From the NCBI GenBank assembly GCA_017480745.1, contig JAFUSA010000020.1:1-58562 (forward strand): a stretch of 58,562 bases of DNA, given 5' to 3'. The DNA is from Alphaproteobacteria bacterium (lineage in GTDB: Bacteria > Pseudomonadota > Alphaproteobacteria > RF32 > CAG-239). Of the stretch, positions 2,779 through 58,299 are shown in pieces (position 1 is the stretch's first letter; the number at the start of each line of letters is the position of its first letter). The position numbers were made by a program, and so were the translations under genes. The notes beneath the pieces were generated by a model, which saw only the letters and a list, made by a program, of their open reading frames with translations, was not told the origin of the DNA and did not search any database.

Positions 2779-2784
2779 GAATAA

Positions 2785-2985
2785 AGAACTTCGGTTCGAG
2801 AGTCTTGAAAAGCTCTTACGTAATTCGATACATGAGTGTCGTTGGTTTATGTTGATTTATCTCCGATTTTGGTTGGGGAGCGCTTTGCGGATGTTCAGGA
2901 ACATTGTTCTAAAGGTTAAGCGGGTCATTTAATTACGTATGATTTTTCAACTCTCCCGGCCGCCGTTTGGTGGTCAATTTTTTTT
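2785..2985 (+). ncRNA. Structured pilin leader RNA, type I (copy 1)
   Basis: Hairpin P1 is GAAC-TTCG-GTTC (2786-2797). The loop of P2 (TTGAAAA, 2805-2811) is complementary to TTTTCAA at 2944-2950. ACGTAATT (2818-2825) is complementary to AATTACGT (2931-2938). A hairpin ending in GGTTGGGGAG can swap its partner for CTCTCCCGGCC, just before the terminal stem GGCCGCC/GGTGGTC (2958-2975), which is followed by eight T residues. The prepilin Shine-Dalgarno lies about 25 bases later. The likely role is cis control of the following pilin by attenuation. Confidence 0.85.
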
Positions 2986-3019
2986 AATATGTTAACCTCT
3001 AATTTTAGGAGATAAAATT

Positions 3020-10350: not shown

Positions 10351-10356
10351 CAAATC

Positions 10357-10527
10357 ACGATGAGGTAACTCGTCTGAGGCCTCCAAGCCTCTTAAATCCC
10401 GTCATATGTGACGTAAAATATTTCCGGCTGTGGCTGGAAGGTAGGTGAATAGGATAGATCTGAATAACCTGCGCTATTGGGATTTGATAGTTTGGAGCTT
10501 CCGGCCGCCTATATCGGGCGGTTGTTT
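10357..10527 (+). ncRNA. Structured pilin leader RNA, type II (copy 2)
   Basis: P1 is GATGAG-GTAA-CTCGTC (10359-10374), a GNRA-capped hairpin. P2 is GAGGC/GCCTC with loop CTCCAA (10381-10386), complementary to TTGGAG (10492-10497). AAATCCC (10394-10400) pairs with GGGATTT (10479-10485). P3 is CGTCA-TATG-TGACG. P4, TTCCGGC/GCTGGAA, has a competing partner, CTTCCGGCC, directly before the terminal CCGCC/GGCGG hairpin (10505-10521) and T-run. Sequence differs widely from type I but every pairing is retained. Confidence 0.85.
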
Positions 10528-10566
10528 TAATGTAATATCAACAATTCAGGTGAAAGGAAGTTTACT

Positions 10567-16016: not shown

Positions 16017-16050
16017 AGTAAACTTCCTTTCACTTAACTAAATCACTAAT

Positions 16051-16226
16051 AAAAACTATACCGCCCGATAAGGCGGCCGGAAGTTCGAAACTACCTAATA
16101 GAATAGTGTTGCATATTAACATAAAGTTTCTATTTTGCAACCTTCCGACCATAGTCGGAAAAATTTTACGTCTTGTTTGACGCTATTAGAGAGGTTTCGA
16201 CACCCCAGATAAGTTACCTCATCTTG
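16051..16226 (-). ncRNA. Structured pilin leader RNA, type II (copy 3)
   Basis: In minus-strand sense, P1 is GATGAG-GTAA-CTTATC. P2 loop TCGAAA (16195-16200) pairs with TTTCGA (16085-16090). CTAATAG (16183-16189) pairs with CTATTAG (16095-16101). GTTGCA pairs with TGCAAC in the central stem. P4 TTCCGAC/GTCGGAA competes with CTTCCGGCC. The terminal CCGCC/GGGCGG hairpin is followed by TATAGTTTTT. The loop-tail pair TCGAAA/TTTCGA differs from copies 2 and 5 at matched positions, a compensatory change. Confidence 0.85.
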
Positions 16227-19552: not shown

Positions 19553-19584
19553 AAATTTATCTCCTCTGTTAAAGTTGAATATTG

Positions 19585-19786
19585 AAAAAAAATTGACCAC
19601 CAAACGGCGGTCGGGAGAGCTCAAAAATCATAACATCACAATGACCTCCGTAACCTTTAAGCAAACGCTCTGAACATCCGCTACGGACTCCCCAACCCAA
19701 GTCGGAGATATTTTTTAATTATGTAAAGATGCATAAATTGCACCTATGATGTTAAGAGCTTTTGAGAGCTCCGAACCGAAGTTCTG
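19585..19786 (-). ncRNA. Structured pilin leader RNA, type I (copy 4)
   Basis: In minus-strand sense, P1 is GAAC-TTCG-GTTC. P2 is GAGCT/AGCTC with CTCAAAA (19760-19766) paired to TTTTGAG (19620-19626). TAACATCA (19747-19754) pairs with TGATGTTA (19631-19638). An inner stem TCCGTA/TACGGA encloses AGC-GTTT-GCT. GGTTGGGGAG can pair with its own 5' arm or with CTCTCCCGACC. The terminal GACCGCC/GGTGGTC stem is followed by AATTTTTTTT, a strong intrinsic terminator. Confidence 0.85.
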
Positions 19787-23029: not shown

Positions 23030-23035
23030 ATGGTT

Positions 23036-23212
23036 ATGATGAGGTAACTTATCTGAGGTCTGAAAACCTCTTTATAACCTGCCTGTTTGGGCATAAAATG
23101 TTTCCGGCTTGGGCTGGAAGGTTGTGGAATAAGCATGTGGCAAATACGCAACACTATTCGGTTATAAATAGTTTTCAGCTTCCGGCCGCCTCAACGGGGC
23201 GGTGTTGTTTTT
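23036..23212 (+). ncRNA. Structured pilin leader RNA, type II (copy 5)
   Basis: P1 is GATGAG-GTAA-CTTATC. P2 is GAGGT/ACCTC with CTGAAAA (23060-23066) paired to TTTTCAG (23172-23178). TTATAACC (23072-23079) pairs with GGTTATAA (23160-23167). P3 TGCC/GGCA replaces the CGTC/GACG of the other type II copies, a full compensatory swap. P4 TTCCGGC/GCTGGAA competes with CTTCCGGCC. The terminal CCGCC/GGCGG hairpin (23186-23202) is followed by TTGTTTTT. Confidence 0.85.
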
Positions 23213-23246
23213 ATTAGTGATTTAATTAGATGAAAGGAAGTTTACT

Positions 23247-32514: not shown

Positions 32515-32550
32515 TTTTAAATCTCCTTCTTGAGAAAAATTGATATTAAT

Positions 32551-32750
32551 AACAAATCAACCGCCAAACGGCGGTCAGGGAGTTAACAAATCATACATAT
32601 TTAAGTGATCCGCCCAACCTTTAGACATAAGTCCTGAACATTCGCAGAGCGCTCCCCAACCCATGTCGGAGATATTTACCATAACTTTAACGATGTTTAG
32701 AAAAACACCGCAATTAGCAAGAGCTTGTTAAGGCCCCGAACCGAAGTTCT
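32551..32750 (-). ncRNA. Structured pilin leader RNA, type I (copy 6)
   Basis: In minus-strand sense, P1 is GAAC-TTCG-GTTC and P2 is GGGGC/GCTCT. The loop TTAACAA (32725-32731) pairs exactly with TTGTTAA (32583-32589). The inner stem CGCTC/GGGCG encloses GGAC-TTAT-GTCT. GGTTGGGGAG can pair with CTCCCTGACC. The terminal ACCGCC/GGCGGT hairpin has only a weak T-run. The second long-range pairing seen in the other eight copies is not evident here. Confidence 0.8.
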
Positions 32751-32756
32751 AATTTC

Positions 32757-35357: not shown

Positions 35358-36035
35358 TTAATGAAAAGCCCAGCCAATATAATTGTTATCCGCAGATACA
35401 CAATATGCCGTAGCTTTTTCAAAAGGCATTGTGGTATCACAGGCAATGTATCCATTTGTACCATTATATCCTCTTCTTCCTTCGCTACTTGTACAATTAT
35501 TATACGTAAATTGATGAAGAGTATTCAGAGCATCACCTATTTCAACATTAATTTCTACAAAATAAGGATTCGCACTACTCCAGTCTTTTGTTACCAGTTC
35601 AATACATGCTTCTTGCGAAATACCTGATAAATATATAAAATATTGAGATGTAAAATTTGATTGAGCGTATACAGAAAATGAGCCACCAAAAGCGTTTTCC
35701 ATAGCCGTTTTATTCTCATTCCACATTTCATCTGGAATGAGCTTAGCTTTTTTCATTACCGAGATATTTAAATCTTTATATCTGCCATTATTACCTGTTC
35801 CGTCAGGCTGATTAGCAAAAAATGTTCGCACATTACCGGCGATGAGAGTTATCTGCTCTATTGTTTTGTTGATGCGATATTTCATTATCGCTTTTGAATA
35901 TCCGGCAATTCCGCCAACCGATAAAACACCGATAATTGCTAATACTCCTAACATTTCTATCATAGAGCGTCCGGACTGGCTCTCTTTCCCGCAAGGGTTG
36001 AGAGAATTATTATTTTTTATTTCAAAGTTTATCAT
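35358..36035 (-). CDS. Type IV prepilin-like protein (pilin 7), leader RNA truncated
   Basis: The protein has 225 residues. Its 22-residue leader contains a short palindromic element (SLNPCGKES) and ends at Gly22 before RSMIEMLGV. KYRINKTIEQITLIAGNVRTFF, KKAKLIPDEMW and EACIELVTKDWSSAN follow, and the C-terminal part has further Cys (NNCTS, IACDT, AYCVS). The coding region looks intact, but most of the upstream leader RNA and the normal -10 are gone. It may be expressed constitutively, weakly, or not at all. Confidence 0.8.
   Translation of the reverse strand: MINFEIKNNNSLNPCGKESQSGRSMIEMLGVLAIIGVLSVGGIAGYSKAIMKYRINKTIEQITLIAGNVRTFFANQPDGTGNNGRYKDLNISVMKKAKLIPDEMWNENKTAMENAFGGSFSVYAQSNFTSQYFIYLSGISQEACIELVTKDWSSANPYFVEINVEIGDALNTLHQFTYNNCTSSEGRRGYNGTNGYIACDTTMPFEKATAYCVSADNNYIGWAFH
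35980..36005. repeat. Palindromic element in the pilin 7 leader peptide
   Basis: CTCTCTTTCCCGCAAGGGTTGAGAG is an imperfect palindrome related to the CCCCTTGCGGGAGA arms found in pilin 1. It is read in frame between the start codon and GRSM. Confidence 0.55.
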
Positions 36036-36070
36036 AACTTTATCTCCTAAATCATAGAGTTAACATACTA

Positions 36071-36122
36071 AAAAATTAACCGCCAAACGGCGGCAGGGGA
36101 GTTAGAAAATCATAATGTCAAA
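36071..36122 (-). promoter_or_regulatory. Remnant of a type I pilin leader (deleted)
   Basis: On the minus strand TTGACA (36122-36117) runs almost directly into TTATGATTTTCTAACTCCCC, the 3' segment of a type I leader, then the CCGCC/GGCGG terminal hairpin (36080-36093). About 170-200 bases (the -10, P1, P2, P4 and both upstream pairing strands) are missing. The terminator-like hairpin remains without its partners. Confidence 0.7.
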
Positions 36123-36174
36123 TAAAAAATATAAAAATATTTGCACAAAAATCATTTTTTTGACAAAATATTCT

Positions 36175-36203
36175 TGACAAAATAGAAGTTATGTATTACA
36201 GTG
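36175..36203 (+). promoter_or_regulatory. Promoter of the membrane protein gene at 36246
   Basis: TTGACA (36175-36180), 17-bp spacer, TACAGT (36198-36203): a near-consensus sigma-70 promoter. A second TTGACA lies 14 bases upstream. Confidence 0.65.
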
Positions 36204-36829: not shown

Positions 36830-36857
36830 TTGACTTTTAGATTTTTTATGGTATAGT
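36830..36857 (+). promoter_or_regulatory. Promoter of pilin 8 leader
   Basis: TTGACT (36830-36835), 16-bp spacer, TATAGT (36852-36857). Confidence 0.8.
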
Positions 36858-36863
36858 TAAAGC

Positions 36864-37059
36864 AGAACTTCGGTTCGGGGCCTTAGAAAGCTCTTAAGAT
36901 TTGCGGTGCATTGCATCGTTAGTTAGATATTGATTCATCTCCGACATGGGTTGGGGAGACTGCAGTGGATGTTCAGAGCTAATGCTTAAAGATTGCGGTG
37001 ATCATTTCAAATCTTATGATTTTCTAACTCCCCTGCCGCCGTTTGGCGGTTATATTTTT
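36864..37059 (+). ncRNA. Structured pilin leader RNA, type I (copy 8)
   Basis: P1 is GAAC-TTCG-GTTC. P2 loop TTAGAAA (36883-36889) pairs with TTTCTAA (37021-37027). TAAGATTTG (36895-36903) pairs with CAAATCTTA (37008-37016), and this second strand sits in the loop of a hairpin ATCAT/ATGAT, which makes a pseudoknot. The inner stem ACTGCA/TTGCGGT encloses AGC-TAAT-GCT. GGTTGGGGAG can pair with CTCCCC. The terminal CCGCC/GGCGG hairpin (37036-37049) is followed by TATATTTTT. This is the clearest single example of the fold. Confidence 0.88.
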
Positions 37060-37091
37060 AATATACAACTATTCGCAAAGGAGATAAAATT

Positions 37092-37724
37092 ATGAAAAAC
37101 TCAAATAATCAAAATGGTCGCTCAATGATAGAGATGCTCGGTGTGCTTGCTATAATCGGTGTTTTATCGGTTGGTGGTATTGCCGGATATTCAAAAGCAA
37201 TGATGAAGTATCGCATAAATAAAACCATTGAGCAAATAACTTTAATTGCCGGTAATATGCGGACATTCTTCGCTTCACAACCGGCAGATACAAGGTATAG
37301 TGGATTGTTAGAGACTGTTGATAATCATGACAGCCTAAATATTATAAGAAAAGCACATTTGGTGCCGGATGAAATGTTTAATCCTGAAGGAGAAAGTGCT
37401 TGCGACGGGCACTGCATGGTCTATATTACAAACGCGTTTGGCGGACCGGTAAGATTTCAATCGTCTTGTGGTATTGATCTGGATGAAACCGGCCATTGCA
37501 AAAATTCATCAGAAGCCATAGAAATATCTTTTCAAGGCATTCCTCAAGAGGCCTGCATTGATATTGCCTCACAAGATTGGAGCAATTTAAATCCGGAACT
37601 TATCTATATCAATACTGGTCTGGGAACCGTTGTAAATTCCGGTTTAAGAATTAAAAGTGTAGATGATGCGATTACAAATTGTAGCAGTGCATCCGATAAC
37701 ACTATAAATTTTCTGATAAAATAA
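37092..37724 (+). CDS. Type IV prepilin-like protein (pilin 8)
   Basis: The protein has 210 residues with a 9-residue leader, MKNSNNQNG, before RSMIEMLGV. KYRINKTIEQITLIAGNMRTFFASQ follows, then RKAHLVPDEMF, an extra Cys pair (SACDGHCMVY), QEACIDIASQDW (Asp replaces Glu in CIEL) and a late Cys (TNCSSAS). The start is set by AAAGGAGATAAAATT. It converges on ackA, separated by a GC-rich hairpin. Confidence 0.85.
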   Translation: MKNSNNQNGRSMIEMLGVLAIIGVLSVGGIAGYSKAMMKYRINKTIEQITLIAGNMRTFFASQPADTRYSGLLETVDNHDSLNIIRKAHLVPDEMFNPEGESACDGHCMVYITNAFGGPVRFQSSCGIDLDETGHCKNSSEAIEISFQGIPQEACIDIASQDWSNLNPELIYINTGLGTVVNSGLRIKSVDDAITNCSSASDNTINFLIK

Positions 37725-40801: not shown

Positions 40802-40807
40802 AGAAAT

Positions 40808-41010
40808 AGAACTTCGGTTCGGAGCTCTGACAGGCTCTTGTCCTATGCGGTACTGAAAATAGTATCGTTAAATTGTATAAAATATTCCTGATTTATGGTC
40901 GGGAAGTCTGTGATAGATGTTCAGGGTGGTCAGCCTAAAAATCACGGAAATCATATTATAGGACATGATTTGTCAGCTCTCCCGACCGCTGTTTAGCGGT
41001 CAAATTTTTT
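40808..41010 (+). ncRNA. Structured pilin leader RNA, type I (copy 9)
   Basis: P1 is GAAC-TTCG-GTTC (40809-40820). P2 loop CTGACA (40827-40832) pairs with TGTCAG (40971-40976). TGTCCTAT (40839-40846) pairs with ATAGGACA (40958-40965). The inner stem TCTGTGAT/ATCACGGA has 8 bp. GGTCGGGA pairs either with its 5' arm TTCCTGAT or perfectly with TCCCGACC. The terminal stem GACCGCT/AGCGGTC (40984-41001) carries a compensated base change relative to copies 1 and 4 and is followed by AAATTTTTT. Confidence 0.87.
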
Positions 41011-41041
41011 AATAAACAACTTTAACAGAGGAGATAAAATT

Positions 41042-41794
41042 ATGATAAACTTAGATACAAAAAATATAGATTTCCACGCTGCGCTCGCAGTTGTGACAGA
41101 AAATGCGCAGAGCACTCGTTCACTTCTTCCGGAGAGTGGGGCAGATGTGTCACAATACGGAAGAAGCATGATTGAGATGCTTGGTGTGCTTGCCATAATT
41201 GGCGTTTTATCTGTCGGCGGTATTGCCGGATATTCAAAAGCTATGATGAAATATAAGATAAATAAAACTATTGAACAGATAACTCTGATTGCCGGAAATA
41301 TAAGGGCATTTTTTGCCCCGCAGAGAAGTTATGAAAATTTATCCCTTAATCCTGAATGTCTCGATAGAAATGATAACATGTTTAACGGATATGTATTAAT
41401 AAAAAAAGCGAAACTTGTCCCTGAAGAAATGATTATTGATGAAGAAGGCTTTGATGGTCAAATAGGTTCTTTACAGGGAGAATTTAGCGATTTTAGTTTA
41501 GAGAGAGAGAATAAATCTGCCGAAAATGATTATAAAGCTTTTTCAATCGGTCTTAACGTGCCTGAAGAAGCCTGTATTGAACTTTTGAGTCAAGATTGGA
41601 CGAATGCCGGAGTTAATTTATTTTATCTAGATGGAGGACCTTCTTATGCAAAGTATTTTATTCCGCCAATTGATGTTGCAACAGTTGTTGAAGAATGTTC
41701 AACAGCATTTAGTAATGGGTATGGTTTGTCGCTTGTTTTTTACTTTGACGTAGATATTAAAAGCAATTATTGGTCATCAATGTTAAACCCATAA
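41042..41794 (+). CDS. Type IV prepilin-like protein (pilin 9)
   Basis: The protein has 250 residues. Its 40-residue leader contains two repeat-derived stretches (DFHAALAVV and TRSLLPESG) and ends at Gly40 before RSMIEMLGV. KYKINKTIEQITLIAGNIRAFFAPQRSYENL follows, then KKAKLVPEEM, EEACIELLSQDWTNAG and a late Cys (EECSTA). The ATG is placed by GAGGAGATAAAATT. It lies just upstream of ruvA in the same direction but has its own promoter. Confidence 0.85.
   Translation: MINLDTKNIDFHAALAVVTENAQSTRSLLPESGADVSQYGRSMIEMLGVLAIIGVLSVGGIAGYSKAMMKYKINKTIEQITLIAGNIRAFFAPQRSYENLSLNPECLDRNDNMFNGYVLIKKAKLVPEEMIIDEEGFDGQIGSLQGEFSDFSLERENKSAENDYKAFSIGLNVPEEACIELLSQDWTNAGVNLFYLDGGPSYAKYFIPPIDVATVVEECSTAFSNGYGLSLVFYFDVDIKSNYWSSMLNP
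41069..41165. repeat. Palindromic repeats in the pilin 9 leader peptide
   Basis: 41069-41097 is a variant of the 26-bp element in pilin 3 (shared core CCACGCTGCGCTCGCA). 41116-41130 (CGTTCACTTCTTCCG) is identical to 23283-23297 in pilin 5. CTTCTTCCG (41122-41130) is complementary to CGGAAGAAG (41157-41165), the codons leading into the conserved GRS site, so a hairpin spans the insertion boundary. Confidence 0.65.
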
Positions 41795-58084: not shown

Positions 58085-58123
58085 AGTAAACTTCCTTTCA
58101 TCTGAATTGTTGTTATTACATTA

Positions 58124-58293
58124 AAATAACCGCCCGATAAAGGCGGCCGGAAGTTCCAAACTACTGCAATTAATAGTGTCGCATATTCAACTTATAGTTT
58201 TATTTTGCGACCTTCCGACCATGGCCGGAAATTTTTACGTCTTTAAGACGAATTGCAAGAGGTTTGGACACCTCAGACAAGTTACCTCATCTT
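58124..58293 (-). ncRNA. Structured pilin leader RNA, type II (copy 11)
   Basis: In minus-strand sense, P1 is GATGAG-GTAA-CTTGTC. P2 is GAGGT/ACCTC with TCCAAA (58263-58268) paired to TTTGGA (58155-58160). TGCAATT (58251-58257) pairs with AATTGCA (58165-58171). P3 is CGTC/GACG. The central stem GTCGCA/TGCGAC is a compensated form of GTTGCA/TGCAAC in copy 3. P4 TTCCGGC/GTCGGAA competes with CTTCCGGCC. The terminal CCGCC/GGCGG hairpin is followed by TTATTTT. Confidence 0.85.
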
Positions 58294-58299
58294 GAATTC

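Follow-up and report, generated by a model that had tools for sequence, protein, structure and literature searches.

The window analysed here, the whole stretch of 58,562 nt, carries nine leaders of about 180-210 nt each, lying between promoter-like sequence and nine type IV pilin genes. Judged by sequence and predicted pairing, these leaders are C4/Xcc1-like in layout and probably kin of sRNA-Xcc1, to be filed in neither family. We consider it somewhat probable that an RNA of C4/Xcc1 type has here become an attenuator private to each gene, which would set transcription past a terminator-like hairpin before the pilin. Nearly every leader carries two long-range complementarities with letters of its own, namely, pk1 (P2 loop with tail) and pk2 (strand after P2 with P5 loop). 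Positions of the leaders and the anatomy of one of them are given in Table 1.

Table 1. Leader copies in the window and parts of the leader and pilin gene at 36830-37724
Feature	Position	Strand	Basis
Leader copy, type A	2784..2990	+	covariance model
Leader copy, type B	10356..10536	+	covariance model
Leader copy, type B	16046..16226	-	covariance model; sub-threshold sRNA-Xcc1 match, 34.7 bits
Leader copy, type A	19580..19786	-	covariance model
Leader copy, type B	23035..23217	+	covariance model
Leader copy, type A, pk2 broken	32544..32751	-	covariance model and pairing count
Tenth pilin: what is left of its type A leader (tail and P6 with the 3' strand of P5)	36063..36176	-	covariance model search
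Leader copy, type A	36863..37066	+	covariance model
Leader copy, type A	40807..41016	+	covariance model
Leader copy, type B	58115..58294	-	covariance model; sub-threshold sRNA-Xcc1 match, 34.0 bits
Promoter-like TTGACT-16-TATAGT, conserved upstream of leaders	36830..36857	+	sequence; TTGAC in 76/80 copies
P1 hairpin GAAC-UUCG-GUUC	36865..36876	+	100% paired in A6 (type A)
P2 hairpin	36878..36893	+	pairing counts
P2 loop TTAGAAA, b1-like strand of pk1	36883..36889	+	pairing counts
Strand after P2, TAAGATTTG, a1-like 5' strand of pk2	36895..36903	+	pairing counts
P2b hairpin, at the position of the T-run hairpin of many Xcc1/C4 loci	36903..36919	+	position compared by eye
P3 hairpin	36939..36958	+	cells paired 96.9% (A), 99.1% (B)
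P3 3' strand, common to P3 and alternative helix AT	36949..36958	+	pairing counts
P4 stem with conserved internal loop and apical hairpin	36960..36998	+	two-sided changes in 7/7 outer pairs, A6 (type A)
P5 hairpin; loop CAAATCTTA (37008-37016), a'-like 3' strand of pk2	37001..37020	+	pairing counts
Tail TTTCTAA, b'-like 3' strand of pk1	37021..37027	+	pairing counts
AT strand CTCCCCTGCC; can pair with P3 3' strand and extends into P6 base	37028..37037	+	cells paired 98.6% (A), 99.7% (B); duplex energies
P6 terminator-like hairpin GCCGCC-GTTT-GGCGGT and T-rich run	37035..37059	+	T-run count, 80/80 copies
Pilin Shine-Dalgarno region AAAGGAGA	37077..37084	+	sequence
Type IV pilin gene (PilS/Bundlin)	37092..37724	+	Pfam

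Two leader subtypes can be defined, type A having a P1 with UUCG loop and type B a P1 with GTAA loop. Two covariance models, one constructed from 13 copies of type B and the other from 16 of type A, recover all nine window leaders, four of them on the minus strand, at the places where the first-pass annotation had put nine copies; these nine also helped build the models. In the 1.6-Mb genome to which the window belongs, the type B model finds at least 71 and the type A model at least 64 non-overlapping leaders, that is, at least 135; both lists were limited by the number of candidates scored, and the total is a floor because the window copy 40807-41016 is absent from the model-found list. We examined 80 leaders of this genome closely, 44 of type B and 36 of type A (37 less L007, which is cut by a contig end). 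A pilin reading frame follows directly in 79 of the 80, its start lying no more than 147 nt past the leader end (median, 27 nt); the sole leader without one is L008. TTGAC is found no more than 45 nt upstream of the leader in 76 copies. Pfam names eight of the nine window pilins, some below the cut-off, and 41042-41794 was recognized by the pilin motif only. A search with one window pilin, in which 150 of 193 candidates were scored, produced at least 168 matches in the same genome; the 150 matches listed correspond to 149 places, so that there are at least 149 separate pilin places in 1.6 Mb. Such a pilin repertoire is unusually large.

The window also contains a tenth pilin (35361-36035, minus strand). 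A deletion in its leader starts just past a -35-like TTGACAT and reaches the 3' side of P5. The tail, the terminator-like hairpin and the ribosome site are all that survives of this leader region.

Both long-range pairings had been proposed from the nine window copies, pk1 in all of them and pk2 in eight, and the counts agree: pk1 has 6-7 contiguous Watson-Crick pairs in 9/9, while pk2 has 7-9 pairs in 8/9 and only three in 32544-32751. When strands from different window copies are combined, pk2 never reaches seven pairs and pk1 reaches six in 4.2% of combinations. Among the 80 examined leaders, at least six contiguous Watson-Crick pairs are present in pk1 of 78 (range 6-7) and in pk2 of 76 (range 6-10 in these 76), with at least seven in pk2 of 74. 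Mismatched leaders of the same type reach six pairs in 5.7-6.9% (pk1) and 2.1-3.0% (pk2) of cases, and seven pairs of pk2 in 0.4% (type A) and 1.0% (type B). In permutation tests (10,000 per subtype), the highest mean was 4.75, compared to observed means of 6.1-8.3. For type A, fixed-column alignments display two-sided changes in 15 of 16 pk pairs, and for type B in 11 of 12; in type A 175 cells have a two-sided pk change versus 22-32 when the partners are slid by 1-3 columns. Because the alignments were fitted to a structure without pseudoknots, these pair counts are not favoured by the alignment fit. Only 69.8% of cells are paired for type B pk2 in fixed columns, which is low because pk2 length varies, so that a search copy by copy judges the pairing more fairly. 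G.U pairs are far commoner than A.C pairs (177 vs 6 and 176 vs 7), and the pairing constraint therefore acts on the RNA of the leader strand. The earlier claim that selection maintains an RNA structure, both long-range pairings included, has strong support.

Four of the examined leaders have a broken pairing: pk2 in 32544-32751 and L008, and both pk1 and pk2 in L068 and L085. All of these except L008 still precede a pilin. Leaders with broken private pairing are possibly chimeras of two leaders. In L008, the a1/b1 side fits the 3' half of L104 (8 and 7 nt) more closely than it fits the 3' half of L008 itself (3 in pk2); for L068, L085 and 32544-32751 no chimera partner was found among the 80 examined copies.

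The letters of the private pairings differ greatly from copy to copy. There are 75 distinct pk2 strings in the 80 leaders, and identity between copies is 38% (type B) and 45% (type A) in pk2, compared to about 74% outside the pairings. Avoidance between pk2 strings does not exceed the random level, the diversity being that of random draws from the same columns, and such random-level diversity does not prove selection for copy-specific recognition. Six groups of close duplicates, 88-98% identical elsewhere, share an a1-like strand, and in four (58115/L063/L064, L066/L070, L067/L083 and L074/L095) pk1 has been re-lettered and fully compensated; it is unchanged in L078/L086 and in L008/L104, where L008 has the broken pk2. 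For example, 58115 has TCCAAA, L063 TCGTAA and L064 TCAGAA, each with the exact complement, in leaders 91-95% identical elsewhere. In C4 RNA the variable a' sets specificity, and a few a' letters separate that of phage P1 from that of P7, as described in passages of PMC5320573. Re-lettering of pk1 in duplicates, taken together with the specificity of C4 a', therefore favours copy-specific recognition over a merely structural role.

At the 3' end of the leader two helices, P3 and AT, are mutually exclusive, since they use the same bases of the P3 3' strand, yet both are kept: the proportion of paired cells in types B and A is 99.1% and 96.9% for P3, and 99.7% and 98.6% for AT. Two-sided changes are few, comprising two pairs per subtype in P3, and one (type B) or two pairs (type A) in AT; in type A, AT partners slid by +1 or +3 columns outscore the true pairing on covariation. 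Conservation of both as competing helices is thus suggestive, but is not proof. The terminal hairpin of the first-pass annotation is present, and its nature, left unspecified there, is that of an intrinsic-terminator-like hairpin: the P6-type hairpin has at least five T in the following 9 nt in 80/80 copies, versus 0/80 in a control slightly further on, and mean energies are -11.4 and -9.8 kcal/mol. In those copies that were inspected by eye, the last two to four bases of the AT strand also belong to the base of this hairpin. Since AT shares a strand with P3 and overlaps the hairpin base, a three-step choice between P3, AT and terminator is possible.

The first-pass annotation had recognized no known non-coding RNA in the leaders. 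This holds insofar as no Rfam family reaches its gathering cut-off, but does not take into account signals of kinship to sRNA-Xcc1 and the layout of C4. The nearest family is sRNA-Xcc1 (RF02221), which matches the sense strand of type B leaders (best 34.7 bits vs cut-off 53). In the own genome, the Xcc1 model has 35 matches at E<=1 (best 1.6e-4 per genome). Of these, 31 coincide with leaders found by the covariance models, three more precede a pilin match by a short distance, and the last is C26:60122. Of 14 control genomes, 2 have matches at E<=1, none over the cut-off. Among 18 loci of relatives in other families, the highest leader score with the Xcc1 model is 41.6 bits, below the cut-off of 53. 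In the reverse direction, model R1, which was made from nothing but pilin leaders, detects two of 30 genuine Xcc1 loci in the correct position and orientation (L026, 2.2e-6; L032, 1.7e-4), both matches spanning the full length. The sub-threshold similarity between leaders and Xcc1 exceeds what chance would give and is reciprocal, though in the reverse direction for these two loci only. R1 found none of four C4 loci, and the C4 model (RF01695) has no match in the own genome at E<=1. Plain membership in either family was therefore rejected, all Xcc1 scores being sub-threshold and C4 matches in the own genome being nil. No riboswitch model matches the window up to E 1, in line with the earlier statement that no known riboswitch was recognized, and a known riboswitch was rejected as a candidate.

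To our reading of the loci L025-L054, sRNA-Xcc1 itself looks like a C4-type antisense RNA, the guide targets of which are often repeated near the starts of antirepressor-type or SymE genes. The Xcc1 model matches 69 of 398 genomes of a phylum sample, in 39 of them over the cut-off. In 30 Xcc1 loci the upstream DNA contains a match of at least 7 nt to a' in 18 and to b' in 26 (9.8% and 10.2% for mismatched loci). Within 75 nt past the core, such a match exists for a' in 15 and for b' in 13 (6.0% and 6.3% for mismatched loci); at the next gene, half of the loci or more lack a match of this length to one of the guides. According to Pfam, the next genes of nine Xcc1 loci encode Bro-N (two), KilA-N, P22_AR_N, Phage_pRha (two) and SymE toxin (two), and one has no name. 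The Xcc1 consensus had no match in plasmids. For C4, Rfam c4-a1b1 (RF03163) lies upstream over the cut-off in L055 and L056 and below it in L058, and was not found in L057. Rfam files the two families apart, C4 in clan CL00128 and Xcc1 in none. Passages of PMC2996969 describe sRNA-Xcc1 as a stable RNA of about 88 nt with RACE ends in Xanthomonas, and a passage of PMC12189769 includes both Xcc1 and C4 among the Rfam matches of Xylella genomes. The literature passages on Xcc1 and C4 that were consulted draw no link between the two, and the titles and abstract openings of papers found in literature searches describe no pilin leaders of such kind.

The pilin leaders and sRNA-Xcc1 have in common the AT-closed domain, P4 with an AAUA-type internal loop, P5 loop and tail, as well as, in many Xcc1 loci, upstream strands complementary to the tail and P5 loop. 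The leaders differ in having P3 and a terminator-like hairpin with T-run, in lacking a private target copy at the next gene, and in heading a pilin, whereas Xcc1 heads an antirepressor or SymE. With C4 of phages P1 and P7 they share the order of elements, an a1/b1 hairpin followed by a linker and a stem-closed domain that presents a' in a loop and b' in the tail; in both, the upstream a1/b1 strands are complementary to that loop and tail. Unlike C4, they have no private a2/b2, do not serve phage immunity and control no phage antirepressor (79/80 precede pilins). C4 RNA is processed by RNase P at a GGW site (described in part of PMC5320573). The GGT with which the P3 3' strand of the leaders starts, in 15 of 16 type A copies read by eye and in 25 of 44 type B copies (GGC in the other 19), is at the place expected for a C4-like GGW site and is perhaps a putative RNase P site. 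In phage P4, CI RNA, an antisense RNA processed from a leader, pairs with upstream seqA, leading to early termination of transcription (passages of PMC4825925); the pilin leaders, which are compared with it by description alone, resemble this system and are without a seqC-like private second site. Acinetobacter baumannii has C4-like Group 1 sRNAs, many C4-type RNAs per genome with variable a', for which transcripts of phages or other transcripts of the bacterium are discussed as possible targets (passages of PMC5320573), whereas the leaders number at least 135 and 79 of the 80 examined head a pilin.

The description of the leaders as a pilin leader class proved too narrow, as relatives carry them before outer-membrane barrels and other genes. 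R1 matches all 22 sampled genomes of the genus (own included), 25 of 38 relatives and, in a class-wide sample of 240 genomes, at least 22, again with the own genome included and with no more than 11 candidates scored per genome. Leaders precede an outer-membrane barrel in L123 and L225 (Pfam) and a prepilin-like gene in L240 (Pfam, just below the cut-off) and in L142 and L227 (by eye). A short form (139 nt in L154 and 159 nt in L150) is found before a small gene, helix-turn-helix-like in L154 with a score below the cut-off. Other leaders of relatives lie before genes judged by eye to be lipoprotein-like or secreted. Pfam at E<=0.01 named nothing among the next genes of L129, L132, L139, L142 and L230, and hence the calls "lipoprotein-like", "secreted" and some of the "pilin" calls were made by eye. 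By RuvA, the nearest named relatives are for the most part Alphaproteobacteria assemblies from rumen and gut (up to 80% identity). In 80 named RuvA loci R1 matched two and model R2 none; L154 and L150 lie in two named assemblies.

In the attenuator mechanism that we favour, AT formation would weaken the terminator base and permit read-through, and P3 formation would leave the terminator intact and stop transcription. The AT-closed domain RNA might be released from earlier transcripts, perhaps by RNase P as for C4, and its a'/b' would pair with a1/b1 of transcripts of its own gene, tipping the choice between P3, AT and terminator as P4 CI RNA does with seqA. Alternatively, the same molecule may act in cis. 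The private sequences would keep at least 135 co-resident leaders from silencing each other, like phage immunity groups. Processing, action in trans and regulation by the leaders are what we infer, and our view of the folding order and of the ON state is guesswork. A further-reaching version, which we regard as tentative and rather doubtful as a whole, is that a domesticated phage-immunity RNA provides cell-wide addressing, with at least 135 self-recognising orthogonal switches, one per surface pilin and each an immunity group by itself, re-lettered soon after duplication, so that a huge repertoire could be kept silent and its members released singly. If true, these proposals would connect sRNA-Xcc1, an orphan in Rfam, with the C4 immunity RNAs of phages, would mean that this architecture moved from phage immunity to control of bacterial surface proteins, and would provide a natural set of more than 100 RNA regulators, each with its own address, within a single cell whose genome has at least 149 pilin places. 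The attenuator idea is directly testable in vitro with single templates.

Attenuation could also be achieved by sensing, if the P4 internal loop bound a common ligand or protein and pk1 and pk2 merely held the fold in cis while their letters drifted. The letters of this loop occupy invariant columns in type A as well as in type B, a terminator-like hairpin with a competing helix is present, many surface genes are headed by leaders, and pk2 diversity equals random, all of which speak for a riboswitch or protein-sensing attenuator. We nevertheless regard it as unlikely, because a change of pk1 on both strands in 4/6 duplicate groups is odd for a merely structural helix, matching strands are found in Xcc1/C4 loci, C4 being a tested antisense RNA (passages of PMC5320573), and no riboswitch family matches. 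Translational antisense as in C4, where the domain would cover the ribosome site and silence the pilin, appears quite improbable. It draws on a shared partial complement between the 24 nt before the start and the leader 3' region in leaders of other genomes (mean 5.94 vs 5.04 mismatched, 0 of 10,000 permutations as high; 36 of 39 leaders, three without an ATG reading frame nearby having been dropped), and on GGAAGTT before the start of type B pilins facing AACTTCC in the leader. Yet a shared complement could not be copy-specific, some of the start-site matches are not at a Shine-Dalgarno, and a private a2/b2 copy near the pilin start is absent, matched and mismatched copies being equal at 90, 250 and 800 nt. 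Such a private target of C4 type at the pilin ribosome site was rejected, as the guides fit the start region of their own pilin no better than those of others.

It is very improbable that the repeated leader mainly serves recombination of pilin cassettes for antigenic variation, with its folds acting as DNA. At least 135 related blocks lie before variable pilins, L008 fits L104 better than itself, L068 and L085 are doubly broken as in chimeras, and one leader has been deleted at 36063-36176, as recombination would have it; the excess of G.U over A.C, the retained promoter-like sequence and terminator-like hairpin, and the unrelated genes behind leaders in relatives argue against a role as DNA.

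Apart from the leaders, positions 14-124 of the window (minus strand) match the Hfq-binding RNA STnc490 with 65.1 bits, the cut-off being 56.
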